Shown here piece by piece: positions 10,584 through 34,479 of a stretch of 64,000 bases of DNA. The position numbers and the translations under genes were made by a program. Within the stretch, counting starts at the first letter, position 1. Each line of letters opens with the position of its first letter. Below the pieces are notes generated by a model. It searched no databases. It had not been told where the DNA came from and saw only the letters and a program-made list of their open reading frames with translations. Source of the DNA: Sulfuricurvum sp. MLSB (GTDB taxonomy: Bacteria; Campylobacterota; Campylobacteria; Campylobacterales; Sulfurimonadaceae); assembly GCF_000747095.1 (NCBI RefSeq), contig NZ_JQGL01000006.1, positions 1 through 64,000 on the forward strand. The letters run 5' to 3'.

Positions 10584-10668
10584 GCGGACGTGGTGAAATT
10601 GGTAGACACGCCAGACTTAGGATCTGGTGCCTCACGGTGTGAAGGTTCAAGTCCTTTCGTCCGCACCA
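10584..10668 (+). tRNA. tRNA-Leu (TAG), integration site of the island
   Basis: Class II tRNA with a long variable arm (TGCCTCACGGTGT region), acceptor GCGGACG paired with CGTCCGC, and anticodon stem CCAGA/TCTGG with loop CTTAGGA giving TAG. CCA is encoded. Bases 10612 onward, from the anticodon stem to past the 3' end, recur exactly at 34418-34479, so the 3' half present here was supplied by the island while the gene stayed intact. Last gene of the tRNA cluster. Confidence 0.95.
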
Positions 10669-10673
10669 CCCTT
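10612..10673 (+). repeat. attL: 62-bp direct repeat from tRNA-Leu 3' half
   Basis: Identical to 34418-34479 over 62 bases, beginning in the anticodon stem (CAGACTTAGG) and running five bases past CCA. The flanks differ on both sides. This is the signature of tyrosine-integrase insertion into a tRNA gene. Confidence 0.95.
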
Positions 10674-11540: not shown

Positions 11541-14500
11541 TCATAACCCTGCTTGGCGATATTTTTTAAAATTCTCAGCTTGCTCAAAAATCTCTTTATA
11601 CACTTCATCTCTATCAATTGGCGGATAATCGTTTTCTGCCAGCAGGATAATCAGATCGGCTTTGAGCTCAGCTTTGATATCATCACGTTGACTCCAGTCG
11701 GTATATTTGGCTTTGTCATCCACGACGAGTTTGACCTCTTTGGCCAGATGGAGCAGTTTTTCTTCGGGATAGTAAAAATCATAGCGGTGTGCCATCGCCT
11801 TTAGGATGTCATAAAACGCTTTTTCTTCGAAATCGATGCCCATGTCGGCAAACGACTCTTTTTCTTTTTTCAGGGCATGATACAAGTCGATAATTTGATC
11901 GGTAAAGTCTTCGAGGACTTCACTGCGCAATACATCTGCTTCTTTACGTTCATTGTACATGTCAACCAGCGCTTTGAACTTTTGGGAAAAGTCGATCCCT
12001 TTGGTTTTGTTCACTTTTTTGAAATCGTTGATCGCTTTGGTCAAAAGCTGCTGCAACAGTTTGATTTTGGTATTGGGGAGCTTGATTTTCTCGATCTTTG
12101 CCAGATACTCATCATCGAAAATATCGATTTGCGATTGCTGTGCGTCACCGAGTTTAAAAATCTCCTCGACCCCGTCGCTTTCCAAAGCGTCTTTGATCAT
12201 ATCCCGGACTTTGGCGTTCATCTGCGCGACGTCGGGAGCATTGCCCTTGGTCAGTTTGAATACGATCGAACGAACCGCCAGATAAAAGTGGATCGTATCG
12301 CGTTCACTTTGGCTAAAGACTTCACTTCCGCTGCAAATATCGTAGGCTGCTTTGAGGCGCTTGACCAGATACATAAACCGCTTTTCGATCTCCTGAGTGA
12401 TCTGCACGTATTCCGCTGCCATATTCAGCGTTTGGAGCTGCTGCAACGGTGATCCTCGGAAATACAAAGCCGCATCAAAATGGTGAAAAATTTTTCCGAT
12501 CAAATCGAGATGATCTTTGACCACCACGATCGACTGCTCGATCTCTTCGAAATTGGTACTTTCTCCTTTCGAATAGTGGGCAAGTGCCAGGTTCATCTGC
12601 CTTTTGATCCCGATATAATCGACGACAAGCCCTTTTTCTTTCCCCTCGAATTTGCGGTTGACGCGCGAAATCGTCTGAATGAGGTTATGCCGCTGGATCG
12701 GTTTGTCAATGTAGATCGTATCGAGAAAAGGGACATCGAATCCCGTCAGCCACATATCGACGACGATCGCGATTTTAAAATTGGATTTGGCGTTTTTAAA
12801 CTGCCGGTCCAGCTCTTTGCGATCCTCTTTGGTCCCCAGCATACGATACAGCTCTTCGGAATCGTCCTTGTTCCGCGTCATGATCATTTTGATCCGCTCC
12901 ATCGGTTTGATCTCCTGGCGCTCTTTTTCGCTCAGTTCGGCACCTTCGTCGCATACTCGGATTTCTGCCCACTCCGGACGCAGTGCAATGACCTCTTTGT
13001 AGAACTGATAGGCGATCGGACGGCTGCTGCATACGAACATCGCTTTGCCTTTGACCGTCGAGCCTTCTGAAACGCGCTTTTCGTAATGGGCTACAAAATC
13101 TCCCGCCAGCGCTTTGATCCGATCCGGATCGCCCAGGATAACATTCATTTTGGCGTTGGCTTTTTTGCTCTTTTCGATCTGATATTCGCTGGTTCCCTCT
13201 TCGGCGCATTCGTTGTAATAGTTTTCGATCTCTTTGAGCTTGCCGTTGTCGAGAAGCACTTTTGCCGCACGCCCTTCATAGACGATACGGACGGTAATCT
13301 CATCCTTGACCGATTCGCTCATCGTATACGAATCGACGACCTCCCCGAATACGTCGAGAGTGGCATCGACCGGCGTCCCTGTAAATCCGACGTACGTTGC
13401 ATTCGGAAGCGAATCGTGCAGATATTTGGCAAATCCGTAGCTTCGTTTGACCCCTTTTTCGGTGACGCTTACTTTCTGATCCAGATTGGTCTGTGACCTG
13501 TGGGCTTCATCCGAAATACAGATGATGTTGTTGCGTTCGCTCAGCAGCTCGGTGTCTTCGGTAAATTTGTGGATCGTCGTCAAAAAGACTCCGCCGCTGG
13601 AACGTCCTTTGAGGAGTTCACGCAGCTGCGCCCGGCTCTCCACGCTGATGATCGCATCGTCGCCGACGTAGCCTTTGGCATTGGTAAACTGATCGGAGAG
13701 CTGATCGTCCAGATCGGTTCGATCGGTGATGAGGACGATGGTCGGACTCGCGAAATCGACGCTTTTCATCAGCAAACGGCTCAGATAGAGCATCGTATAG
13801 CTTTTACCGCACCCCGTCGCACCGAAATACGTCCCCCCTTTCCCGTCTCCTTCGGGTTTGCGGTGTTTCATGATATTGGCATAGAGTTTTGTGGCCGCGT
13901 AGTACTGCGGATAGCGGCATACGACCTTTTCCTCTTTTTTGGAGGTGTCGGGGAAATAGATGAAATGGCGGATGATATCGCACAATCGATCCCGCCCAAA
14001 GAGCCCTTTGATCATCGTATAGAGCGAATCGATCCCATCGCGTTCGATCGACTCATCACCCGTGATCTTGCGCCACGCATAGAAAAATTCATACGGAGCG
14101 AAAAACGACCCCGCTTTGCTGTTTACCCCGTCGCTGATGACGCACAGCGCATTGTATTTGAACAGTTCTGGGATATCCCGCCGATACCGTACGGTGAGCT
14201 GGATAAACGCATCGTGAATCGTTGCCTCTTCACGAATCGCGCTTTTGAATTCGAATACCACGAGCGGCAATCCGTTGATATAGAGAATGCCATCGGGGAT
14301 ACGCAGTTCATACCCCTGAATCTCCAGCTGATTGACGATTTTGAAATGGTTTCGATCGACATCCGTATAATCGATCAGCTGAACATAGAGATCTTTTTGG
14401 GAGCGATCTTCGCGTTTGAGGAGAAATCCGTCAGAGACTATCTTCATAATCGCTTTATTGCTCTCATACAGATCCGAGTGGGGGAGGAGTTCCAGCTTGC

Positions 14501-14696
14501 GGATCAGCCCATCGATTTCATTGGGTGTGATCCCATCGGATGCGTATCGTGTGGATAAAAAGGATCGCAGATCCTCTTCGATCAAAACGCCCTGCGGATC
14601 TCTGATGATCGTTTCACCCGATACGTGCGTAATCTGCTCTTCGCCCAGCAGCTCGATGATCGCCTGTTCCAGCCGCCCTTCGGTAAACCTACTCAC
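11541..14696 (-). CDS. hsdR: Type I restriction endonuclease, HsdR subunit
   Basis: The 1051-residue motor and nuclease subunit of a type I restriction system; with HsdM2S it translocates and cuts unmethylated foreign DNA. An N-terminal PD-(D/E)XK nuclease region (PDGILYINGLPLVVFEFKS near 135-155) precedes an SF2 helicase with Walker A GATGCGKSYT (~295), DEAH box CISDEAHRSQ and later TGFDVPFLDT and QTISRVNR motifs; an alpha-helical C-terminal part follows. Start is GTG at 14696, with a near-perfect GGAGGTGA ribosome site inside the end of the AlbA_2 gene, which it overlaps by eight bases. Last gene of the six-gene hsd operon. Appears intact. Confidence 0.95.
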   Translation of the reverse strand: MSRFTEGRLEQAIIELLGEEQITHVSGETIIRDPQGVLIEEDLRSFLSTRYASDGITPNEIDGLIRKLELLPHSDLYESNKAIMKIVSDGFLLKREDRSQKDLYVQLIDYTDVDRNHFKIVNQLEIQGYELRIPDGILYINGLPLVVFEFKSAIREEATIHDAFIQLTVRYRRDIPELFKYNALCVISDGVNSKAGSFFAPYEFFYAWRKITGDESIERDGIDSLYTMIKGLFGRDRLCDIIRHFIYFPDTSKKEEKVVCRYPQYYAATKLYANIMKHRKPEGDGKGGTYFGATGCGKSYTMLYLSRLLMKSVDFASPTIVLITDRTDLDDQLSDQFTNAKGYVGDDAIISVESRAQLRELLKGRSSGGVFLTTIHKFTEDTELLSERNNIICISDEAHRSQTNLDQKVSVTEKGVKRSYGFAKYLHDSLPNATYVGFTGTPVDATLDVFGEVVDSYTMSESVKDEITVRIVYEGRAAKVLLDNGKLKEIENYYNECAEEGTSEYQIEKSKKANAKMNVILGDPDRIKALAGDFVAHYEKRVSEGSTVKGKAMFVCSSRPIAYQFYKEVIALRPEWAEIRVCDEGAELSEKERQEIKPMERIKMIMTRNKDDSEELYRMLGTKEDRKELDRQFKNAKSNFKIAIVVDMWLTGFDVPFLDTIYIDKPIQRHNLIQTISRVNRKFEGKEKGLVVDYIGIKRQMNLALAHYSKGESTNFEEIEQSIVVVKDHLDLIGKIFHHFDAALYFRGSPLQQLQTLNMAAEYVQITQEIEKRFMYLVKRLKAAYDICSGSEVFSQSERDTIHFYLAVRSIVFKLTKGNAPDVAQMNAKVRDMIKDALESDGVEEIFKLGDAQQSQIDIFDDEYLAKIEKIKLPNTKIKLLQQLLTKAINDFKKVNKTKGIDFSQKFKALVDMYNERKEADVLRSEVLEDFTDQIIDLYHALKKEKESFADMGIDFEEKAFYDILKAMAHRYDFYYPEEKLLHLAKEVKLVVDDKAKYTDWSQRDDIKAELKADLIILLAENDYPPIDRDEVYKEIFEQAENFKKYRQAGL

Positions 14697-16026
14697 CTGT
14701 CACCTCCCAATGCCCGCCTTTGGCCGATCCGATCCGTCTGATAATCCCCTCGGATTTGAGTTTTTGGATCTGCCATTCGATCCCTTTGGTGCTGATGCCC
14801 GCGGCCTCAGCCAACTCTTCCATCGTAACGGAAGGGGTTTTTCTCATAGTTTCGAGAATGTTCTCCCTAGTTTTTCCCCTAGTTTTTCCCCTAGTTTCTA
14901 CCGCTTCATCGGCTGCCGGTATAAACCCAAAAGAAATCCACAGACCGTTATCGTATCGAAGGGTCGGCTCGACACGGTTGTAGGCTACCGATTCGCTGAT
15001 GATTTTATCGATACCGCGCCCCCAGGATTCGATAAGCCCTGCGAGGAAAAAGATATGGGCGATATCGGGGTTAAACGGCTTGGACGGGTGCTTTTGTTTC
15101 AGCGTCTCCACGCTCCACCCCTGCGGGAGATCCCCGGCATTCCAAATCATCAGCTTGTCATCGTACACGCTGATCTGGATCGGGGTACCGCTGCCGTAAT
15201 CCTTGTGCGCCACGGCATTGATGAGCGCTTCACGCAAAGCGAGTTTTGAGACCGGGAACGTCTCGATCCTCTGTATCCCCTCGTAGGTGATATCGGCTTT
15301 GAGGTATTTGGTATAGAGCAGATCGATCGTCTTTTCGATCTGATCGAACAGATTGCCGTGGATCTCATCGTGAAAGCGCAAATCGCTGTCTGTTTTAAAA
15401 TACCCGATCTTGATGTAGGCACCGGTGATGTATCTTTCGGCATCTTTGGCAAACAGCAGTACCGAGGCACGCTTGAGATACTCCCCGTCGATGAGATGAA
15501 GTTTGTCGATCAGTTCCTCGTCCGTTTCGTTCAGGATATCGACATCCAGACGCTCTTTCTTGGCGGCACGCTGGCGAAACGTCTCGATCGCCGAGGGGTC
15601 CAAATCGGTGCGCTTGATATACGGTATCGGTACACCGTCCCACCGTTTCCCCTGTTTTTCGAGTAAAAACCGATCCAGCGCTGCGCCTTTGAGCTCTTGT
15701 TTGGTGCTACCGGTACGGTAATGGTATTGCCCCTTATAGCTGACGGGATACGGATAGGGTTCGGTAGCGATGGAGAGGTATTGTCGCCCCTGCGCTTCAT
15801 CCATCTGGACATCGACGATGATGCCGAGCAGATCGCGGACTTTGTTGGGGATGTCTTCGAGCAGTTTTTTGGCATTGTCGATCCCGACGATCTCACCCAC
15901 ATCATCGACACCGATGTAGATCGTACCCCCCTTGGCATTGGCAAATCCGCAGATCCACTGGATATACTCGTCGCGCCAGGATTGTTTAAATTCGGTGTCG
16001 TGGTTTTCGTGTGCGGTGAGTTTCAT
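14689..16026 (-). CDS. AlbA_2 (Schlafen-like)/GHKL-type ATP-binding, winged-helix protein
   Basis: A 445-residue protein of the family formerly called AAA_4 / divergent AlbA-2. The N-terminal AlbA_2 domain shows ENHDTEFKQSW and ICGFANAKGGTIYIGVDD, a likely nucleic-acid-binding fold shared with Schlafen proteins. The centre has a GHKL-like ATP-binding region (LREALINAVAHKDY, then VYDDKLMIWNAGDLP and GLIESWGRGI), and the C-terminus after TRGKTRGKTRE has a winged helix-turn-helix (MEELAEAAGISTKGIEWQIQKLKSEGIIRRIG). Family members often lie inside type I loci; their role is not settled and could be regulatory or defensive. ATG at 16026 overlaps the upstream stop (ATGA); the track start at 16044 is less likely. 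Confidence 0.85.
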   Translation of the reverse strand: MKLTAHENHDTEFKQSWRDEYIQWICGFANAKGGTIYIGVDDVGEIVGIDNAKKLLEDIPNKVRDLLGIIVDVQMDEAQGRQYLSIATEPYPYPVSYKGQYHYRTGSTKQELKGAALDRFLLEKQGKRWDGVPIPYIKRTDLDPSAIETFRQRAAKKERLDVDILNETDEELIDKLHLIDGEYLKRASVLLFAKDAERYITGAYIKIGYFKTDSDLRFHDEIHGNLFDQIEKTIDLLYTKYLKADITYEGIQRIETFPVSKLALREALINAVAHKDYGSGTPIQISVYDDKLMIWNAGDLPQGWSVETLKQKHPSKPFNPDIAHIFFLAGLIESWGRGIDKIISESVAYNRVEPTLRYDNGLWISFGFIPAADEAVETRGKTRGKTRENILETMRKTPSVTMEELAEAAGISTKGIEWQIQKLKSEGIIRRIGSAKGGHWEVTGE

Positions 16027-17195
16027 AAATTGATCCCAGAACAAAAAGCTCTTATCGGATGTATCAAAACTTCAAAAAAATGAGGAGAAGCCAAATCAAT
16101 CAAATATATAGCCATTAGAATAAAACCGACCGTAAAAACAATAACGACCGATTGATATATACTCGTAAGTTTTAAAATGCTTCGAACTCTTCCGTTTACT
16201 CCATCTTGTTCTTTAACCAATACCTCTTTATCAATTCCAGATTTTTCCGAAATCAACTGAAATACATGATCAAATCTCACTTTTAAATCAGAAATACCTT
16301 TTTTCATTGTGCTAATGGTGAAGAAACTAAAAAGGCTCCAAACAAAAATTATGCCAGAAGCAATCAATAGAGGATACGGTTCTTTTTCAAATCTAAATAA
16401 TAGATAAATATATACTCCAAACTGTATTGGAAGTGAGTTCACTTTAGATAAAAATTCGGAGAGTGAATCCTGTAACGTTTTAAAATATTTGTCCTTTTCC
16501 TCATCTAACTTTGATTGGAATTCTTCAAATGAAAATTTGTTTTTATAAAGTTCAAATTCTCTATTGGCTTTTTCTACAATTTTTGCCAAATTTTCCAAAG
16601 CAGTAATGAAGCGGTAGTTAATATCTTTGCAATCCTGAACTTTTTCAATCATATTGTCTCGAAAAAAACTCAAATATTCATTTTCCTGACATTTTATAGA
16701 CAGCTTGTGATAGAGTTCTTTTAACTCATGATTCCTTTCATAGAAATCCAAAGATTTGTCTTTGTAACCAACCTCTATCTTGCCTCTCTTCTCTGATAAA
16801 AAAATAAATTTTTCATGCAATATATCGTGGTATGAAGCAATCTCTTTTTCAATAAGAAGTTTTTGTATTTTGGATGCAAAAATCAAGTTTTCAAAAAATA
16901 GATTTTCATCGGCATGACCATCTTGAAAATAGATTTGATCTTGAAGGATGATAATAGGCTTATCGGACGTTTGATCTGCATAATGCAATAAACAATCTTT
17001 TTTTGTTTTGTAGATATGTAATGGCTGAATAGATAAGTCGATATAAATGCCTTCAGCATGCTTCTCATACGTTATCGAATATTCAGCAAGAATTTCAGTT
17101 GAATTTTCGAGTTCTTTTGAAACGATTTCCAGGTCATTGTCTGAAATGTCATTACATTGTACGAGAAGATTAAATAGCTTTGAAACGTCATTCAT
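16023..17195 (-). CDS. Unknown membrane protein with coiled-coil domain, in hsd operon
   Basis: 390 residues with no domain I recognise. The first ~250 residues are soluble and rich in Glu/Lys/Asn with long helical, probably coiled-coil stretches (around 160-250, e.g. FEEFQSKLDEEKDKYFKTLQ). The C-terminal part has about three membrane spans: IQFGVYIYLLFRF, YPLLIASGIIFVWSLFSFFTI, and VVIVFTVGFILMAIYLIDLA. The gene lies three bases after the NA37 stop and overlaps the AlbA_2 start, so it is cotranslated with them. It is strongly A+T-rich unlike hsdM and hsdR. A DNA-binding partner next to a membrane-anchored coiled-coil protein suggests a sensor/effector pair, but the function is unknown. Confidence 0.75.
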   Translation of the reverse strand: MNDVSKLFNLLVQCNDISDNDLEIVSKELENSTEILAEYSITYEKHAEGIYIDLSIQPLHIYKTKKDCLLHYADQTSDKPIIILQDQIYFQDGHADENLFFENLIFASKIQKLLIEKEIASYHDILHEKFIFLSEKRGKIEVGYKDKSLDFYERNHELKELYHKLSIKCQENEYLSFFRDNMIEKVQDCKDINYRFITALENLAKIVEKANREFELYKNKFSFEEFQSKLDEEKDKYFKTLQDSLSEFLSKVNSLPIQFGVYIYLLFRFEKEPYPLLIASGIIFVWSLFSFFTISTMKKGISDLKVRFDHVFQLISEKSGIDKEVLVKEQDGVNGRVRSILKLTSIYQSVVIVFTVGFILMAIYLIDLASPHFFEVLIHPIRAFCSGINL

Positions 17196-17197
17196 TT

Positions 17198-18178
17198 TTA
17201 ATCGGTTCTTCCGTGATTATTCAATGCATTTTGAATTTGCTGGACTAAGCCTGGAGAATTGATGACTACGGAGCCATCAACTATTCGAATTGCATTGGGG
17301 TTAAAACTACTTCTGGGAGCAGTAAGTTCAATGTTATCAGCTTTTACAGAGACCTTATAAAACTTTTGCAAGTTGCTACCAGTGAGTTTAAACTCTCCAT
17401 CGATGTCAATATTATTTTCTGAGCAGAAGTTTGAAATCTTATTTTCATCTGCATACAAGTATTGACTGAGTTCTCGCAGATTAATCACTCGGTCTCTATG
17501 ACTTTTGGTGTAGTCAAAAATCTTTTTCTTGAGTTCTTCTCTCGTTACACCTGCTGGCAAATCGATTTGATTAGCAACATCATATAAAGCTTCAGCATCT
17601 TTATTTTCCTGCTTCGTATCATCAAGTCCTATCCAGCCTTCAAAGTAATGCGATATATCAGTATTACCACGGACAAGGGAAACGTACCTGTCTTCTGACG
17701 TACCATTCAAAATTGAAAGATTGATTTTTGCACCCATTGCAAAATGTTCAACATCGAGATATTGCGTAGAATTCAGATCCCAGCTACCAGCATTGGGCGT
17801 CAATTTGGATCCATCCGTATTTCTTACAAGGAAAAGTGCTAAGAAATCATGATTTGAAGCATACTCTGCAAAAACAAGATAACCGCCTTTTGCTGCCGAA
17901 ATACCATCTATACGGTCTTTCAGATTTTCAGTCAAATTGCGAGAAAGAGATAAAATTTCAAAACTTTCGAATGACTCTACACGATCTTGAAATCCTCCAT
18001 CGGCGAACTTCGCTCGTTTAACAGTTTTTCTTGCAAAAGATTCTTCAAGAGAATTGACAATTCTTTTAACATTTTCATTCGTAACATCTAAGGTATCATT
18101 TGAAAGATATATACTCGCACTATTGGTACTGCCTGCTTCTTTGGTAATCTCGTGAATTACAATGGATTTTAATGTCAT
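17198..18178 (-). CDS. NA37/NdpA (YejK-like) nucleoid-associated protein
   Basis: A 326-residue homologue of the 37-kDa nucleoid-associated protein family (NdpA, E. coli YejK). Shared landmarks are IVIHEITK at the start, KGGYLVFAEYASNHDFLALFLV, TQYLDVEHFAMGAKINL and YVSLVRGNTDISHYFEGWIGLDD, all in the family's order and spacing. YejK binds DNA and has been linked to topoisomerase regulation; chromosomal copies are usually not found inside restriction loci. I chose the ATG at 18178, one base after the hsdS stop, rather than the track start at 18229. A+T-rich. Its placement between hsdS and a membrane protein suggests it recognises DNA on behalf of a defence module; that is inference. Confidence 0.85.
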   Translation of the reverse strand: MTLKSIVIHEITKEAGSTNSASIYLSNDTLDVTNENVKRIVNSLEESFARKTVKRAKFADGGFQDRVESFESFEILSLSRNLTENLKDRIDGISAAKGGYLVFAEYASNHDFLALFLVRNTDGSKLTPNAGSWDLNSTQYLDVEHFAMGAKINLSILNGTSEDRYVSLVRGNTDISHYFEGWIGLDDTKQENKDAEALYDVANQIDLPAGVTREELKKKIFDYTKSHRDRVINLRELSQYLYADENKISNFCSENNIDIDGEFKLTGSNLQKFYKVSVKADNIELTAPRSSFNPNAIRIVDGSVVINSPGLVQQIQNALNNHGRTD

Positions 18179-18179
18179 A

Positions 18180-19343
18180 TCAATCCCTTTCTTTCGGTAT
18201 TTCAACTTCAATCGTTGCCATTTTCGCAAGCAAAATTTGTCGCATGGTATTCAAAAGCTGAGTCTCTTTAGATTTGGCTTTTATGCGTTCAAAAATTGGC
18301 TGAACAAATTCATGAAATTTTTGCATTGTATTCAAATCGATTTTCATAATCGGATATTCATTTAAATAATCACTATGCACACGTTCTCTTCCTGAAGAAC
18401 CTATCATACTGCTGATTGCATAAGTTCTGAACTGCTCATCTCTGGCAAAACAATAGATCCAAAACGGGCTAATGGCATTTTTAGCACGCATTACAATAAA
18501 TTCAGTCGAGCCAAAAGCTATTTCACCATCTTCTAAACAATCGACAAATGCCGTTTTACCATTTTCAAGACACGGAGTTATTCGTGCCAGCAATGTATCA
18601 CCATTTTGAAATTTAGAGCCGGCAGTATAAGGACGCTTGGCTACCTGTTTAATACTTAGACTGTCTTCCTGTACGTCAGCCATTTCTACATAACTACATA
18701 AAGTGTCTTTTTTGATTGAATGTGTCGGATTAAACTCGATATATTGTTCCAATGTCGTACTATTTTCTGTATCAATGACTTCGTCCATATTAAACCACTG
18801 CCGATAGAGCGCTTGTGCTGTCTCTTCAAGTTTTTGGTTCAACTGTTCGTTAAGGCGGATACACTCGGTGATCGTATGATACTCCCGCACGATCTCGCGC
18901 TGTTTTTCGATCGAGGGGATAGGAAGTTCAATATCACACATCTCTTCCCAGCCAAAAATCTCCCGCACGCTGCCGTGTGACATATAACGGGCATAACGAT
19001 CGAATTCGGGACGGCGAAACCACATCATCAAATATTCGGGAAGTAATTCTTCAGAATCGATAATTTCAAAAACCGTATAAGCTTGAGAAACCAAAGCTTC
19101 TTCATGTGTTTCCAACATTGCAATTCCAATTTTATCACCACGGCGTGAAGTATCTGGAACGTAGGTAAACTGATACTTTTTAACAACTTTATATTTCTTG
19201 AAATCAGTTCCAACCGTATTTGCTATAGATTCAATAAATTTTTTTTGCGTTGAAACACCTAAGAGATTTTCTTGCTTATCTTCAACATTGCGAGTATCTA
19301 CTTGACGAATATATTTGCCAAGATCCTTATAGTTCGATCGCAT
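18180..19343 (-). CDS. hsdS: Type I restriction system specificity subunit HsdS
   Basis: 387 residues with two target-recognition domains, each followed by a conserved helical spacer: PIPSIEKQREIVREYHTITECIRLNEQLNQKLEETAQ-type text after the first and a helical FVQPIFERIKAKSKETQLLNTMRQILL after the second. It sets the DNA sequence that HsdM methylates and HsdR cuts. The central spacer is visibly richer in G+C than the two recognition domains, as expected if recognition domains are swapped by recombination. ATG at 19343 overlaps the end of hsdM by 17 bases. The TRD sequence itself does not let me predict the target site. Confidence 0.93.
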   Translation of the reverse strand: MRSNYKDLGKYIRQVDTRNVEDKQENLLGVSTQKKFIESIANTVGTDFKKYKVVKKYQFTYVPDTSRRGDKIGIAMLETHEEALVSQAYTVFEIIDSEELLPEYLMMWFRRPEFDRYARYMSHGSVREIFGWEEMCDIELPIPSIEKQREIVREYHTITECIRLNEQLNQKLEETAQALYRQWFNMDEVIDTENSTTLEQYIEFNPTHSIKKDTLCSYVEMADVQEDSLSIKQVAKRPYTAGSKFQNGDTLLARITPCLENGKTAFVDCLEDGEIAFGSTEFIVMRAKNAISPFWIYCFARDEQFRTYAISSMIGSSGRERVHSDYLNEYPIMKIDLNTMQKFHEFVQPIFERIKAKSKETQLLNTMRQILLAKMATIEVEIPKERD

Positions 19344-20898
19344 AACCCAACTCTTTGAACACGTTTAACAACTCTTTTTTCGATTCCTCTTCGGCTCGGA
19401 GCAAGTCGGCAAATTCAAATTGCAACGTCTGCATCTTCTCATCAAAATCGATGTTTTCATCGCGGTTGACAAACGCGATGTATTTGCTGGGGACGAGAGA
19501 ATAATCTTTGGCTTTGATCTCCTGGATCGTGGCGCTGTAGCAGTATTCGGGGATGTTTTCGTATCCCTCTTCGACACACTGCCACGTGTGATAGGTACGG
19601 GCGATATCGCGGATATGCGCTTCGCTGAACTGCACGAATTTTTTCTCGAACGGCTCACCGACCTGGCGCAAGTCCATAAAAAGCACTTCATCTTCACGGT
19701 CACGATAACGGCGAACGACATCGCCGTGCTCTACCGTATGGGCTTTTTTGTTTTTGTTTAGAATCCAAAGCGTAACACTGATATCCGTCGTGTAGAACAT
19801 ATCTCTTGGCAAAATAACAATCGCTTCGACCAAACGGTTCTCGATCAGCTTCGCCCGGATCGCCTTTTCGACTCCGTCACCCGAGAGGGCGCCGTTGGCG
19901 AGGATAAATCCGGCGACCCCGTTTTGGGAGAGCTTGGAGACCATGTGCAAAATCCACGCGTAGTTAGCGTTGGACGTCGGCGGAACCTCGTAACCGCTCC
20001 AGCGCGGATCGTCGGTGAGTTCATTATCCGCACGCCAGTCTTTTTGGTTGAACGGAGGGTTGGCCATGATGAAATCGGCTTTGAGATCGGTATGGAGGTC
20101 TTTACTAAACGTATTGGCGGCGTTGTCTCCGAGATTTCCGCTGATCCCCCGAATGGCGAGATTCATTTTCGCCAGTTTGAGGGTGGTGGAAGTCCCCTCT
20201 TGTCCGTAGACGGAGATGTCTTTTTTGTTTCCTTGGTGGTTGTCGACGAATTTCATCGACTGCACGAACATCCCCCCCGAACCGCAGCACGGATCGTAGA
20301 TCTTGCCCCGGTAGGGCTCGATCATCTCGGCGATCAGATTGACGATGCTTTTGGGGGTATAGAACTCCCCTTTCCCTTTTCCCTCGGCGAGGGCGAAGTT
20401 GGAGAGAAAATACTCATACACCCGCCCGATGATGTCGTGGGATTTGTCATTGAGGGTGTCGATGTTATTGATCGTATCGATTAGGGTCGCGAGTTTACTG
20501 ACATCCAGATCCAGACGGGAAAAATAGTTATCGGGGAGCGCCCCTTTGAGCGCTTTGTTGTTTTTTTCGACGGTGTAGAGAGCGGTATCGATCTTGACCG
20601 CGATATCGTCTTGTTTCGCGTTTTCGCTGATGTAGCTCCATCTCGCTTCCGGCGGGAGGAAAAAGACGTTTTTCATCGCGTAGAACTCGACGAATTCGAG
20701 ATATTTTTCTTTTCCTTCGGCGATGAGTTCCCCACGGCGCTCTTCGAATTTGTCACTGGCGAATTTGAGGAAGATGAGACTGAGGACGACGTGCTTGTAT
20801 TCGGACGGTTCGACCGTCCCGCGTAGCTTATTGGCAGAGTCCCAGAGGGTCTCCTCGATATTTTTTTGTTTTTTAGGGGCGGCGGCTTTTTTTGCCAT
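19327..20898 (-). CDS. hsdM: Type I DNA methyltransferase subunit HsdM
   Basis: A 523-residue N6-adenine methyltransferase. HsdM_N helices occupy residues ~15-150 (EETLWDSANKLRGTVEPSEYKHVVLSLIFLKF), then the Rossmann-fold MTase domain with the AdoMet motif YDPCCGSGGMFVQS and catalytic FIMANPPFNQ. Key residues are present. The ATG at 20898 has AAGGA eight bases upstream; the track start at 20916 has none. First gene of the six-gene operon hsdM-hsdS-NA37-TM-AlbA_2-hsdR. Confidence 0.96.
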   Translation of the reverse strand: MAKKAAAPKKQKNIEETLWDSANKLRGTVEPSEYKHVVLSLIFLKFASDKFEERRGELIAEGKEKYLEFVEFYAMKNVFFLPPEARWSYISENAKQDDIAVKIDTALYTVEKNNKALKGALPDNYFSRLDLDVSKLATLIDTINNIDTLNDKSHDIIGRVYEYFLSNFALAEGKGKGEFYTPKSIVNLIAEMIEPYRGKIYDPCCGSGGMFVQSMKFVDNHQGNKKDISVYGQEGTSTTLKLAKMNLAIRGISGNLGDNAANTFSKDLHTDLKADFIMANPPFNQKDWRADNELTDDPRWSGYEVPPTSNANYAWILHMVSKLSQNGVAGFILANGALSGDGVEKAIRAKLIENRLVEAIVILPRDMFYTTDISVTLWILNKNKKAHTVEHGDVVRRYRDREDEVLFMDLRQVGEPFEKKFVQFSEAHIRDIARTYHTWQCVEEGYENIPEYCYSATIQEIKAKDYSLVPSKYIAFVNRDENIDFDEKMQTLQFEFADLLRAEEESKKELLNVFKELGYAIEL

Positions 20899-21032: not shown

Positions 21033-21713
21033 TTAATCGGCAATTTTAACTGTGTCAGTTCCATTGTAATAATCGTTTAATTTAATATCCCAAGATAAAG
21101 CTTTTGATTTTAGCTGTTCTATCACAATATCCGGGTTATGCAGAAGATAGTAGCAATCCTTGTTATTTATATTTTCTAATAATGCATATAACTCTTTTTT
21201 TACGTCTTTTAAAAAGGCTGATGTATCGTAAAACTCCTCGATTTTATCTCGAAGAAAATTTTTAGAATCTTCCTTCGAACCAAAGTATTTGTAACTTTTC
21301 AAGATTTTTATAAGTACAAAATGAACTCTATTCCCAAATTTGTGAGATTTCCTTTTGAATAGAAAGAAACCTTTTTCTTGTTTGTAAAACTTTTCTAAAA
21401 TTTTTTTGACAATCTCTTTTCTAACGAGATCTACTTCTCCCCCATATTCCTGGAAATCAAGTATCAGATCTGTTAACTTGATCTTATTTTCATTCTCTTC
21501 TATCTTCATATTTCCTTCTCCAAAAATAAGCCAATTAGGATCAATCTTAAATTTATGTTTCAAAATAGTCACTTCTTCAATCTGCAATCTACGTTTTCCG
21601 TGTTCGAGGTTATTATAGATTTGTTTTGAATAATTAAACTCTTGTGCCATTTCCACCTGTGTTTTACCAATTTTTTCTCGTGCTTCTTTTAATCTTTTGG
21701 CGATTTCTTGCAT
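21033..21713 (-). CDS. Phage-type transcriptional repressor, XRE family
   Basis: 226 residues. The N-terminal helix-turn-helix (AKRLKEAREKIGKTQVEMAQEFNYSKQIYNNLEHGKRR) is of the Cro/CI type, followed by KHKFKIDPNWLIFGEGN, a phrase typical of prophage repressors. The remaining ~140 residues are Lys/Glu-rich and show no LexA-like peptidase motif, so it is probably not cleaved by RecA. The ATG at 21713 has GGAG seven bases upstream; the track start lies four codons earlier. Divergent from a three-gene operon; the two dyads at 21734-21750 and 21785-21800 are its likely operators, so it probably represses itself and those genes. Confidence 0.8.
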   Translation of the reverse strand: MQEIAKRLKEAREKIGKTQVEMAQEFNYSKQIYNNLEHGKRRLQIEEVTILKHKFKIDPNWLIFGEGNMKIEENENKIKLTDLILDFQEYGGEVDLVRKEIVKKILEKFYKQEKGFFLFKRKSHKFGNRVHFVLIKILKSYKYFGSKEDSKNFLRDKIEEFYDTSAFLKDVKKELYALLENINNKDCYYLLHNPDIVIEQLKSKALSWDIKLNDYYNGTDTVKIAD

Positions 21714-21733
21714 AAGTTTCTCCATATTTTTAG

Positions 21734-23604: not shown

Positions 23605-24528
23605 ATGCGAGGATCTGTTTATTACCAATCGGCGGAACTGATTAAAGTTATCTTTGTCGAAGGTGCCAAAAAAACAGAACGTGTCGATAAGACACATCCT
23701 CATTACCAATGCATAACTTCATATAAGACCGCCAAAGCGTACCGCGAAGTTTTCAATAATTTCTTTCACTATCTGCGTGAACATTGGAAAATCAAAGATC
23801 CATTGTTGATTACGGGTGAAATGGTCGCTTCTTATATGGAGTACAAGTCAGAATACCATGTTAGTAAGCAATATTTAGAGAAGATATCTTCAGCCATGGC
23901 CAAATTAGAAATTGCGCTAAAACGTCATACCTTGTCTAAATACGGTGAAGCAGGTGATTATGATTTTTCGGTTCGACAAAAAATTTTAGATAGTTCGCGA
24001 GACTTGAAACTGGTAGCAGATAATTATCACAACCGCACCTATAAACATCCCCACGTACTTATCGCATCACTAACACAACCAGAACATCGGATTGCAGCTA
24101 CTATTCAGCATGAAGGCGGTGCACGAATCGAAGGGGTAACACTCATCAAATCGGATCAACTGCACGGCATACGATTCGATTCTATCACCGGTACAGATAA
24201 GGGAGTTATTTTTACCAAAGAAAAAGGAGGAAAGGAAGGTGACGTACTGGTTTCAACAACTACCTACAATCGTCTTTTGCACCATTTGCAAACCAATAAA
24301 CATTTCAAAATAAATCGACAAAAATACAGTCATGATATTCGTACAACTTGCGAAAAAATAGGGATTAGTGCTGAGGGATCGCACGGGCTGAGATGGAATT
24401 TTGCGAAGCGTCGTATGATGGAATACGCCAAAGCAGGCTATACATATGAGCAGAGCCTGCAAGCAGTTTCGTGGGAAATGAAACATAATCGTGCGAGCAT
24501 TACCACTCATTATTTGGGGGGATTTTAG
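23605..24528 (+). CDS. Tyrosine recombinase-like protein
   Basis: 307 residues with the layout of a tyrosine site-specific recombinase: an N-terminal SAM-like arm domain (KTAKAYREVFNNFFHYLREHW) and a catalytic domain in which I can match box I Arg (HEGGARIEGVTL), the beta-hairpin Lys (TKEKGGKEGD), HGLR (HxxR) and a final HYL Tyr (SITTHYLGGF). Spacing is loose compared with the island integrase and the box II His/Trp position reads MKHNRAS. ATG at 23605 has a GAGAAG upstream. It could be a second integrase, a resolvase of island dimers, or a phage-derived remnant that still has its catalytic set. Confidence 0.72.
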   Translation: MRGSVYYQSAELIKVIFVEGAKKTERVDKTHPHYQCITSYKTAKAYREVFNNFFHYLREHWKIKDPLLITGEMVASYMEYKSEYHVSKQYLEKISSAMAKLEIALKRHTLSKYGEAGDYDFSVRQKILDSSRDLKLVADNYHNRTYKHPHVLIASLTQPEHRIAATIQHEGGARIEGVTLIKSDQLHGIRFDSITGTDKGVIFTKEKGGKEGDVLVSTTTYNRLLHHLQTNKHFKINRQKYSHDIRTTCEKIGISAEGSHGLRWNFAKRRMMEYAKAGYTYEQSLQAVSWEMKHNRASITTHYLGGF

Positions 24529-31174: not shown

Positions 31175-31193
31175 AAATTTGAGGTTTTCCGAC

Positions 31194-31775
31194 ATGCTGA
31201 TAGGATATATGCGCGTTTCGACTGACGGTGATCGGCAGAGTACAGATCTTCAACGTGATGCATTGATAAGTGCCGGGGTGGATGAGCGGCATATATTTGA
31301 AGACAAGGCTTCCGGATCCAAAGATGATCGTGCCGGGTTGGCACAGGCACTGGAATATTTTAAATCAGGAGACACCCTTGTCGTTTGGAAACTGGATCGT
31401 CTTGGGCGATCACTCCCCCATCTGATCGAAATCGTCAATCAGCTCAAATCCAGGGGAGTCGGATTCAAGTCTCTCACTGAGGGAATGGATACCTCCAGCC
31501 CTTCGGGTGAACTTCTATTTCATGTTTTCGGTGCATTGGCGCAGTTTGAGCGTTCATTGATCCAGGAACGGGTCAATGCCGGATTGGCAGCTGCGAAGAA
31601 GCGGGGGCGAATCGGTGGACGACCGCGAGCGATCCCTCAAGAGAAGATGGATGCTATTTTAGAGGCATTAAACAACGGAATGTCGAAAGCAGCGGTGTGT
31701 CGAACATTTGAAGTAAAGCGCTCCACATTAATTGATACCCTTAATCGAAAATCTGCAGAAAAATTCGCATATTAA
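31194..31775 (+). CDS. Serine recombinase (resolvase/DNA-invertase family)
   Basis: 193 residues from the ATG at 31194, with GAGG upstream. Catalytic N-terminal domain: MLIGYMRVSTDGDRQSTDLQ carries the nucleophilic Ser, and WKLDRLGRSLPHL the conserved Asp-Arg...Arg; linker helix region SPSGELLFHVFGALAQFERSLIQERV; C-terminal helix-turn-helix GGRPRAIPQEKMDAILEALNNGMSKAAVCRTFEVKRSTLIDTL. All key residues are present. Size fits small Pin/Tn3-type enzymes. No invertible segment is obvious next to it; it may resolve multimers of the excised island. Confidence 0.92.
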   Translation: MLIGYMRVSTDGDRQSTDLQRDALISAGVDERHIFEDKASGSKDDRAGLAQALEYFKSGDTLVVWKLDRLGRSLPHLIEIVNQLKSRGVGFKSLTEGMDTSSPSGELLFHVFGALAQFERSLIQERVNAGLAAAKKRGRIGGRPRAIPQEKMDAILEALNNGMSKAAVCRTFEVKRSTLIDTLNRKSAEKFAY

Positions 31776-31852: not shown

Positions 31853-32929
31853 ATGTTTGATCGAAACCTACCTTACAACGATTTGCCACTTCTGCCACCA
31901 GCAGTTGAACTCGAAACAAAAGCCATTCTCAAACAAGCCATTGCTGCTTCAAGAGCAGTTGCTGACTTAAAAGGGAAAGCTCAACAAATCCCAAACCAAC
32001 GTATGATGATCGATTCCATTGTATTACAAGAAGCCCGTCTATCAAGTGAAATTGAAAATATTGTTACTACCAATGATGAACTTTACCGTGCGGCAGCTGA
32101 TATGGACGGGCTTTTTGATAGTCATACCAAAGAAGTTCTTCGGTACCGACAAGCAATTTGGTATGGATATGAACAAATTCATAAACGCCCATTGAGTGCT
32201 AATCTTTTTGTCGAAATCGTTCGAATCATCAAACAAATCCATATGGACGTGAGGAAGACTACAGGAACCAAACTCTCCGGACCTAATGGTGAAATTGTTT
32301 ATACTCCACCTGAAGGAGAACCAATTATTCGTGAAAAATTGGCAAATCTTGAACAATTCATTTATTCTGAAGACGACCTTGACCCACTTGTGAAATTAGC
32401 GGTTATGCATTACCAATTTGAAGCTATTCATCCATTCGCAGATGGCAACGGACGTACAGGGAGAATTCTAAATATCCTTTTTCTTGTAGAGCAAAAGCTA
32501 TTGGATATGCCCGTTCTGTTTCTTTCGCGTTATATCCTCGAAAATAAAGGCGACTACTATGATGGACTTCGTGGAGTTACAGAAAATGGTCTCTGGGAAG
32601 ATTGGATTTTATATGTTCTAAAAGGGATCGAACTTACCGCCAAACAAACTTCAGAACAGATAGATGCCATATTGGAACTCACGGAAGCTGTCAAAGACAT
32701 AATGAGAGACAAGGCTGAAAAGATATACAGCAAAGAGTTGCTTGAGATGATTTTCATGCACCCATACTGTAAAATCAAATTTTTGGAACAAAGCGGTATT
32801 GCCAAACGTCAAACTGCCTCAACCTATCTACAGACCTTGTCTGATATTGGAATTTTGAGAACCGAGAAAATTGGAAGAGAAAACTATTATATCAATGATG
32901 CACTGCTACATATTTTGATGAATCGATAA
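31853..32929 (+). CDS. Fic-domain protein with N-terminal inhibitory motif
   Basis: 358 residues. The Fic core carries HPFADGNGRTGRI (HxFxDGNGRxxR), the active site that transfers AMP, or a related nucleotide, to a target hydroxyl. The N-terminal part holds SSEIEN (near residue 63), which fits the (S/T)xxxE(G/N) inhibitory helix that keeps the enzyme off in class II Fic proteins. The C-terminus is a winged helix (IAKRQTASTYLQTLSDIGILRTEKIGRENYYIN). No antitoxin gene is beside it, consistent with self-inhibition. Usual length for this class. Targets unknown. Confidence 0.93.
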   Translation: MFDRNLPYNDLPLLPPAVELETKAILKQAIAASRAVADLKGKAQQIPNQRMMIDSIVLQEARLSSEIENIVTTNDELYRAAADMDGLFDSHTKEVLRYRQAIWYGYEQIHKRPLSANLFVEIVRIIKQIHMDVRKTTGTKLSGPNGEIVYTPPEGEPIIREKLANLEQFIYSEDDLDPLVKLAVMHYQFEAIHPFADGNGRTGRILNILFLVEQKLLDMPVLFLSRYILENKGDYYDGLRGVTENGLWEDWILYVLKGIELTAKQTSEQIDAILELTEAVKDIMRDKAEKIYSKELLEMIFMHPYCKIKFLEQSGIAKRQTASTYLQTLSDIGILRTEKIGRENYYINDALLHILMNR

Positions 32930-33019: not shown

Positions 33020-34168
33020 TTAAGAAAATAGCTTCATTGTCATGTCATGTCTAATATTGGGAATCAGATGGGCGTATCGCATCGTCATTTCGATATGTTT
33101 GTGCCCGAGTTGTTCTTTGATCTGCAAAATATCCAGCCCGGCTTCTGCAAGCCAACTCGCATGAGTATGCCGCAGTGAATGGGCAGTGATTTTGTATTTC
33201 GTATCTCGCTTCTTATTTCCAGGGATGACGATTTCTACCGCCGTAGCAAAATAGTCCGGCATTCTCAAGATGATCCCACCATCGCTGTTGTTGATAACGT
33301 TTTCATTGACCCTGTTTTCATAGAGATAATCGATCGTTTCGCGAAGGATCTCATTCATTGCGATATGGCGCTCATTGCCATTTTTGGTCTTTTTGAAAAA
33401 AATCGTATTGTTGGCGAAATTGACATCAGCCCATTTCAACCGGGTATCGATACCTGTTTTGTTTTTCTGAGATGAGGCACCCGTAATTTCACTGAACCGT
33501 GCGCCCGTAAAAAGGAGCAGCACCGTCAAATGATACATCAAAGGGTGTGCCGATTTCAAAATCTCTAAAATTTTTTTGGCCTGGTCTTTCGTTAGATAAC
33601 CTTGCCGCTTGTTATCTATGTCCGGCATCTTGACTTTTCCTTCACCCATAGGATTGGCAAAGTTTTTGAGTATGTTATGTTTGATCGCATAATTAATGAT
33701 CGTTCGGATGAGTGTCATCTGATGCTTGACCGTCTGCGGCTCCAGCCCTTTTGCTGTAAGATCCTGCTTGAATTTTTCGAAATCCAAAGAGGTCAAATCT
33801 TTCACACTCTTATGCCCGAAAACAGGCTTGATGTGCTTCTTATAATTCTTTTCGTCCATTAGATATGACTTCTTATTTGCCTTGGCATAGCTGTAAAATT
33901 CTTCCCAAATAGTGTCAAATTTTAGTTTTGAAGTTCTGCCCGCTTTAATCGTCGGTTCTTCATCATGCTGAAGTTTATACTTCATTTCAATCAGTTTTGC
34001 ATAGGCATCTTTTACGGTGAAATCAGAAATTCTTGTTTTTTTACCTACAAGTACTTTAACCGGCTTACCGTGATCATCACGATAATTAATGTAAAAGGAT
34101 ATATCGCCATTTTTTAGCTCATTGACCCAGACACCCTCATATCGTCCACCAACTGCCTTCAATGCCAT
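33020..34168 (-). CDS. int: Island integrase, tyrosine recombinase family
   Basis: 382 residues from the ATG at 34168; the track start 15 codons upstream is less likely. N-terminal arm-binding domain (SFYINYRDDHGKPVKVLVGKKT), core-binding SAM-like domain (~80-170), then the catalytic domain with Arg in TGARFSEI, Lys in KKTKNGNERHI, HSLRHTH (HxxR), LGHKHIEMT (box II His) and the Tyr nucleophile in MRYAHL. Complete. It sits 250 bases from attR and reads into the island; it almost certainly catalysed insertion into tRNA-Leu. It lies at the opposite end from the intact tRNA. Confidence 0.95.
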   Translation of the reverse strand: MALKAVGGRYEGVWVNELKNGDISFYINYRDDHGKPVKVLVGKKTRISDFTVKDAYAKLIEMKYKLQHDEEPTIKAGRTSKLKFDTIWEEFYSYAKANKKSYLMDEKNYKKHIKPVFGHKSVKDLTSLDFEKFKQDLTAKGLEPQTVKHQMTLIRTIINYAIKHNILKNFANPMGEGKVKMPDIDNKRQGYLTKDQAKKILEILKSAHPLMYHLTVLLLFTGARFSEITGASSQKNKTGIDTRLKWADVNFANNTIFFKKTKNGNERHIAMNEILRETIDYLYENRVNENVINNSDGGIILRMPDYFATAVEIVIPGNKKRDTKYKITAHSLRHTHASWLAEAGLDILQIKEQLGHKHIEMTMRYAHLIPNIRHDMTMKLFS

Positions 34169-34273
34169 GTTATAAGTCCCCTGTTTTGAAAGAAAATTAC
34201 TTTTTATCCACAATAGATCATTTTTTCGTTGAAAAAGTATAACAAAGTTTTCGTAATAGGAAGTGGCTTTTTT

Positions 34274-34417: not shown

Positions 34418-34479
34418 CAGACTTAGGATCTGGTGCCTCACGGTGTGAAGGTTCAAGTCCTTTCGTCCGCACCACCCTT
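34418..34479 (+). repeat. attR: tRNA-Leu 3' fragment (62-bp direct repeat)
   Basis: Exact copy of 10612-10673. It lacks the 5' half of the tRNA so it is not a gene. It is followed by a T-rich stretch (TTCTCTTTTTTTATTT) that was probably the original downstream end of the tRNA operon before insertion. Confidence 0.95.

Follow-up and report, generated by a model that had tools for sequence, protein, structure and literature searches.

The nucleoid-associated protein NA37 and the membrane protein encoded directly after it (MEM) very probably form a self-contained two-gene anti-phage defense module. In Sulfuricurvum sp. MLSB this pair is exchangeable cargo, and the type I restriction (hsd) operon in which it lies is only its carrier. 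We read the pair as a defense module because it stays together in 18 of 19 loci with congruent gene trees, is homologous to DS1_1 and DS1_2 through its relatives, is carried by phages and plasmids and at Q-to-lysis prophage sites, has its slot taken by other defense modules in the nearest operon and the sister element, and coincides with a break in base composition. A system of this kind is already known; what is new is this divergent branch and its position. For the statement as a whole, that is, a DS-1-like module riding as hsd-slot cargo on an integrative element and acting by the mechanism proposed below, we see the case as evenly balanced.

A six-gene restriction operon with accessory genes

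The operon lies in the window, the whole 64,000-nt stretch of DNA that was analyzed (contig NZ_JQGL01000006.1, positions 1 to 64,000), and runs hsdM-hsdS-NA37-MEM-AlbA_2/GHKL/wHTH-hsdR in one direction on the minus strand, with neighboring genes overlapping or standing 1 to 2 nt apart (Table 1). NA37 starts 1 nt past hsdS and MEM starts 2 nt past NA37, and the overlap between hsdR and the AlbA_2 gene is 8 nt. The AlbA_2 reading frame is open up to 16044 and stops at 14689; its likely start is the ATG at 16026, in an ATGA overlap with the MEM gene. Gene coordinates and domain matches confirmed the preliminary description of six genes in one direction with touching or overlapping ends, and its identification of the extra ORFs between hsdS and hsdR as NA37, a membrane protein, and an AlbA_2 gene was also correct. 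The carrier type I system is complete, as hsdM, hsdS, and hsdR all have the expected domains (Pfam, NCBIfam, and PADLOC matches). The AlbA_2/GHKL/wHTH gene is a second accessory gene in the hsdS-hsdR slot, and its relatives (58 to 60% identity) either stand by themselves or belong to a different type I operon or a type III operon.

Table 1. Features of the restriction operon, its integrative element, and the E. coli prophage pairs
Feature	Position	Strand	Description
hsdM	20898..19327	-	Type I methyltransferase; HsdM_N and N6_Mtase
hsdS	19343..18180	-	Specificity subunit; Methylase_S; 17-nt overlap with hsdM
NA37	18178..17198	-	NA37/YejK-type nucleoid-associated protein, 326 aa; PF04245, E=3e-33
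MEM	17195..16023	-	Membrane protein, 390 aa; second gene of the pair
AlbA_2 gene	16026..14689	-	SLFN_AlbA_2 (PF04326), HATPase_c_4 (PF13749), wHTH (PF13412); GHKL
hsdR	14696..11541	-	Type I restriction subunit; TIGR00348 above cut-off
Attachment-site repeat	10612..10673	+	tRNA-Leu(TAG) 3' end plus 5 nt; 62-bp exact direct repeat
Second tRNA-Leu 3' end copy	34418..34479	+	Far end of the element
Tyrosine integrase	33020..34213	-	Phage_integrase, E=3e-22; 86% identical in sister element
Serine resolvase	31179..31775	+	PF00239; 92% identical in sister element
SoFic-type Fic (element cargo)	31853..32929	+	Fic_N, Fic, SoFic-like_C; 87% identical in sister element
Cro/CI-type HTH regulator	21033..21725	-	Element backbone, upstream of hsdM; HTH_3/HTH_19; 53% in sister element, there away from hsdM
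E. coli prophage pairs	L029:5981-8352; L030:4121-6323		Very divergent NA37 plus MEM versions

NA37 and MEM recur as a unit

In 18 of 19 loci, profile scans identified NA37 as the gene immediately preceding a MEM homologue in the same orientation, the sole exception being a 204-aa MEM fragment in Cupriavidus. The 18 distinct loci comprise the window, genomes G248 and G241, a Methylococcales metagenome-assembled genome (MAG), and plasmid, phage, and E. coli prophage copies, and thus span Campylobacterota, alpha- and gammaproteobacteria, plasmids, and prophages. The G248 pair has the same gene order, with MEM 50% and NA37 67% identical to those of the window; the corresponding values for the Methylococcales pair are 34% and 49%. 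Seven plasmid or plasmid-listed records carry the pair (Sphingomonas, Methylobacterium, Methylobacter, Pseudoalteromonas, Pseudomonas, and two from Acinetobacter), as do six phage records that were examined. The Acinetobacter phage copy equals one plasmid-listed copy in all scores and was counted once. Some loci, such as those of Sphingomonas and Pseudoalteromonas, were found first via NA37 and then again by the MEM search, and the G241 pair was located through NA37 alone. When genome contigs were scanned, the full MEM alignment returned nothing and its conserved 74-residue block returned one locus; neither protein of the window pair had a close homologue in the viral contigs, nor did MEM have one in the plasmids. 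NA37 is itself rare in Campylobacterota, being present in 6 of 397 genomes.

The trees of the two proteins are congruent (patristic r=0.84; 0 of 10,000 permutations as good), and the linkage of NA37 and MEM is not due to chance. Both trees group the window with G248 and the Methylococcales MAG in a single clade, although these span two phyla: the pair travels as one piece. Only the window has hsd genes around the pair; the 17 other loci have none in flanks of 4 to 13 kb. The preliminary description would have been refuted had NA37 and MEM been neighbors in no other genome, but they are adjacent in 17 other loci, away from hsd genes, including plasmids, prophages, and genomic islands.

Divergent versions of the pair occupy one and the same site in two E. 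coli lambdoid prophages, the stretch that separates antiterminator Q from the lysis genes. Of 5,426 E. coli genomes, 40 gave DNA matches to the first version and 14 gave near-complete matches to the second. The Q-to-lysis interval of prophages is a frequent home of accessory cargo, and in the E. coli lambdoid prophages this position is an exchange site for the pair.

The window pair is related to DS-1

The DefensePredictor paper (2026, PMC13092281) counts the YejK nucleoid-associated domain among those newly validated in defense, in systems tested by plaquing in E. coli MG1655, and a validated system with this domain argues for the defensive reading of the window pair. NCBIfam contains the families NF053868 (DS1_1, "nucleoid-associated anti-phage protein") and NF053869 (DS1_2, "anti-phage protein"), which, on our own reading of the family names, represent the DefensePredictor YejK system with two genes. 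On this reading, DS-1 is a described system of NA37 and a membrane partner, whereas the preliminary description knew of none.

The window NA37 scored 19.4 bits against NF053868 (E=4e-4) and the window MEM 15.8 bits against NF053869 (E=0.006), neither of which reached the curated cut-offs of 330 and 315 bits. The E. coli prophage pairs were likewise under the NF053869 cut-off at 70 to 100 bits. Other pairs, which are relatives of the window pair, match the DS1_1 and DS1_2 models strongly. In hhalign comparisons, the window branch of MEM aligned with the other pair partners over 289 columns (P=4e-12; reversed and shuffled controls, 0.027 to 0.96), and the window branch of NA37 aligned with the other pair NA37s (P=3e-30; reversed or column-shuffled controls, at least 0.11). 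Judged by sequence, then, the window pair is a distant, divergent relative of DS-1 and is not DS-1 by the curated cut-offs.

The window pair belongs to a DS-1-like superfamily in that MEM stands directly after NA37 on the same strand and is homologous to proteins matching DS1_2. As in DS-1, an NA37/YejK-domain protein is followed by a coiled-coil/membrane protein, the homology running via intermediate pairs. Unlike DS-1, the window pair branches off as a clade of its own, in which the N-terminal part of MEM is distinctive, and unlike the other pairs, which stand alone, it sits in a type I restriction operon. Our searches located two other E. coli variants and no E. coli DS-1 copy above the cut-off. 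DS1_2 matches in seven genomes of one Campylobacterota genus extended over approximately 65 positions (E approximately 1e-4) and were not counted as members. The DS-1-like family, dating from 2026 and barely characterized, now reaches beyond E. coli into Campylobacterota and other proteobacteria, as well as plasmids and many prophages.

An integrative element and its sister exchange restriction operons

The operon lies within a 23.9-kb integrative element (10612 to 34479) that the preliminary description had overlooked. A sister element occupies the same tRNA-Leu in the genus-mate G404 (L080/L081; G404:C19:381000-405000) and lacks the NA37/MEM pair. Its type I operon is a different one, with HsdM 43% and HsdR 33% identical to those of the window, and it holds AbiTii between hsdM and hsdS. 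Between its hsdS and hsdR are a DUF3644 protein (PDC-S19), a trypsin-like protein (PDC-S45), a TIR protein, and Fic, the sister copy of the element's Fic standing before hsdR. One integrative-element family here exchanges whole restriction operons plus their inner defense cargo at one tRNA. The inner genes of the sister operon also include a 392-aa SH3-like protein. The element backbone of the window encodes a 307-aa protein (23605 to 24528) with no Pfam or PADLOC match, which is 57% identical in the sister element.

Carriage by an integrative element would also suit a role in regulating or stabilizing the mobile element rather than in defense, since NdpA2, encoded on the integrative and conjugative element PAPI-1, lifts the repression that MvaT exerts on conjugation pilus genes (PMC8565334). 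We consider this reading quite improbable: the MEM partner is constant, the prophage copies occupy cargo sites, the pair is homologous to an anti-phage system, and it is absent from the sister element.

The hsdS-hsdR interval is a cargo site

Base composition changes abruptly within the operon. The GC content is 0.50 in hsdM, 0.52 in the AlbA_2 gene, and 0.49 in hsdR, versus 0.38 in hsdS, 0.37 in NA37, and 0.30 in MEM, and GC3 is 0.60 to 0.66 in the former three versus 0.27 to 0.33 in the latter three. This break marks hsdS-NA37-MEM as a block of recent arrival. The closest hsd operon, that of genome G037 (HsdM 76% and HsdR 74% identical), is without the pair, and its hsdS-hsdR slot contains a 685-aa protein, the defense candidates PDC-M01A and PDC-M01B, and a Fic-wHTH gene. 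The 685-aa protein (L043:5237-7294), which has no Pfam match and stands beside PDC-M01A/B, is a candidate for a hitherto unrecognized defense gene. Of the genes just before hsdR, the AlbA_2/GHKL gene of the window and the Fic gene of G037 (L043:9669-10658) share only a C-terminal winged helix (14689-14886 in the window; 43% identity across 65 aa), a pattern that looks like an exchange of the effector part.

Independent defense genes have been described at this position before. The prrC gene is embedded between hsdS and hsdR in EcoprrI (PMC3874165), and DarTG2 is embedded in the hsdS-hsdR interval in EPEC, where the site was termed a potential recombination hotspot (PMC12255303). As with prrC, DarTG2, and the PADLOC "PDC" candidates, the type I operon interval of the window serves as a cargo site for an independent defense module. 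The cargo differs, however, in being a DS-1-like pair plus an AlbA_2/GHKL gene, with NA37 and MEM having no PADLOC match. The module thus lies inside another defense system and is replaced by other modules in G037 and in the sister element. The earlier suggestion of a pair built into the restriction operon finds no support in the base composition, the G037 operon, or the sister element, and we rejected an integral role as the default because the pair occurs without hsd genes elsewhere.

A functional tie to restriction might nonetheless take the form of a guard, in which the pair is held silent by HsdMSR or senses its failure, so that disarmed restriction triggers a membrane-level abortive response. 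The pair occupies the prrC position of EcoprrI (PMC3874165), and there are translational overlaps inside the operon. Coupling of this PrrC type is nevertheless very unlikely because none of the 17 other pair loci has hsd genes in the examined flanks; in addition, the closest hsd operon does without the pair, and base composition shows its late arrival. We know of no membrane-acting guard of a restriction enzyme that has been described.

Parallels to this cargo occur in type III operons. An AlbA_2/GHKL gene 60% identical to that of the window lies between mod and res in G109 (L039:6739-13038), and NA37 with a 506-aa two-span protein occupies the same interval in G348 (L054:3282-10817); the two backbones are 53% (mod) and 71% (res) identical. 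The 506-aa partner resembles MEM only weakly (hhalign P=9e-4, against 0.07 for the reversed control) and falls outside the 18 pairs. The hsdS-hsdR and mod-res intervals are where further systems may be sought.

Proposed mechanism

MEM begins with a large N-terminal part, and its three hydrophobic segments follow in the later portion of the protein, which also has a coiled coil. Hydropathy is strong at approximately 273-297 and 340-374 and weaker around Pro256, a proline that is invariant across the family, and a long predicted helix joins the last two hydrophobic segments. The alignment shows this invariant proline together with a conserved FSF...Y...IP block. The AlphaFold models were built on two-sequence alignments and are poor (pLDDT of 57 and 43, the former for MEM). 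The description of MEM as a three-span protein with a long coiled coil nevertheless holds by hydropathy and the predicted helix (model pLDDT, 57). We infer that MEM passes the membrane three times, N-in, with its N-terminal part in the cytosol, and it is probably oligomeric. MEM matched no Pfam family and has no recognizable channel or enzyme domain, and a Pfam domain search found no nuclease domain in either protein. NA37/YejK proteins are nucleoid-associated, which suggests that the window NA37 binds DNA.

We propose that cytoplasmic NA37 would detect phage DNA or a replication or protein-DNA intermediate and then dock on MEM, either at its cytosolic N-terminal part or at its coiled coil. 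Activated MEM would damage or depolarize the inner membrane, and infection would abort. The restriction enzyme would form the initial barrier, behind which the pair, sharing its transcript, would act independently. The precedent is RexAB of phage lambda and P. putida prophage P1, a two-gene system of a DNA-binding and an inner-membrane protein in which RexA is thought to activate RexB (PMC12894663). Like RexAB, the window pair belongs to a two-gene, prophage-carried couple of a DNA-binding and a membrane protein, an anatomy that is compatible with this working; no sequence relation to RexAB was seen, nor was one expected, and the analogy is one of working and not of kinship. RexA is not known to belong to the NA37 family, nor RexB to have a long cytosolic N-terminal part.

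Several points count against this explanation: both proteins score far under the DS-1 cut-offs, MEM has no domain that would identify it as a channel or enzyme, and DNA binding is assumed from the family. The preliminary idea of a DNA-binding sensor with a membrane effector in abortive-type defense agrees with the anatomy and the DS-1 homology, and its effector mechanism is a proposal; taken alone, we give the sensor/membrane-effector mechanism an even chance.

A different division of labor is offered by Kiwa, which consists of the membrane protein KwaA and the DNA-binding protein KwaB (PMC12904381). By analogy, MEM might sense DNA injection, or be stationed where it happens in the inner membrane, and tether NA37 there, which would coat the incoming DNA and block its replication and transcription so that the cell survives. 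We regard this as the main rival, possible but less likely than the sensor/effector mechanism. KwaA and KwaB have the same two-part anatomy, with KwaB binding DNA without cutting it (PMC12904381), and nucleoid association combined with the lack of a nuclease domain in both genes is in keeping with a tether. However, neither protein matched KwaA, KwaB, or any other PADLOC model (E<=1), and the topology of MEM, with its late hydrophobic segments and large N-terminal part, need not match that of KwaA. Gene order and protein families also differ from those of Kiwa, and membership of the pair in Kiwa was rejected on the missing PADLOC match. The likeness to Kiwa in the preliminary description is therefore retained as one of formal membrane/DNA-binding anatomy, without a KwaA/KwaB match, and prophage-borne RexAB serves at least as well as a formal analogue. 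The pair is an inherited unit, and its alignment offers residues to mutate.

NA37 also occurs in other company. In two genomes of one genus it stands alone, without MEM, in a conserved neighborhood (L052:8914-9954 and L053:7686-8726). In G117 (L055:5042-7096), the gene that begins 3 nt after NA37 encodes a protein with a match to the YjbM GTP diphosphokinase model (E=9e-15), perhaps a further pair of NA37 plus effector in a stretch that is possibly phage-like.
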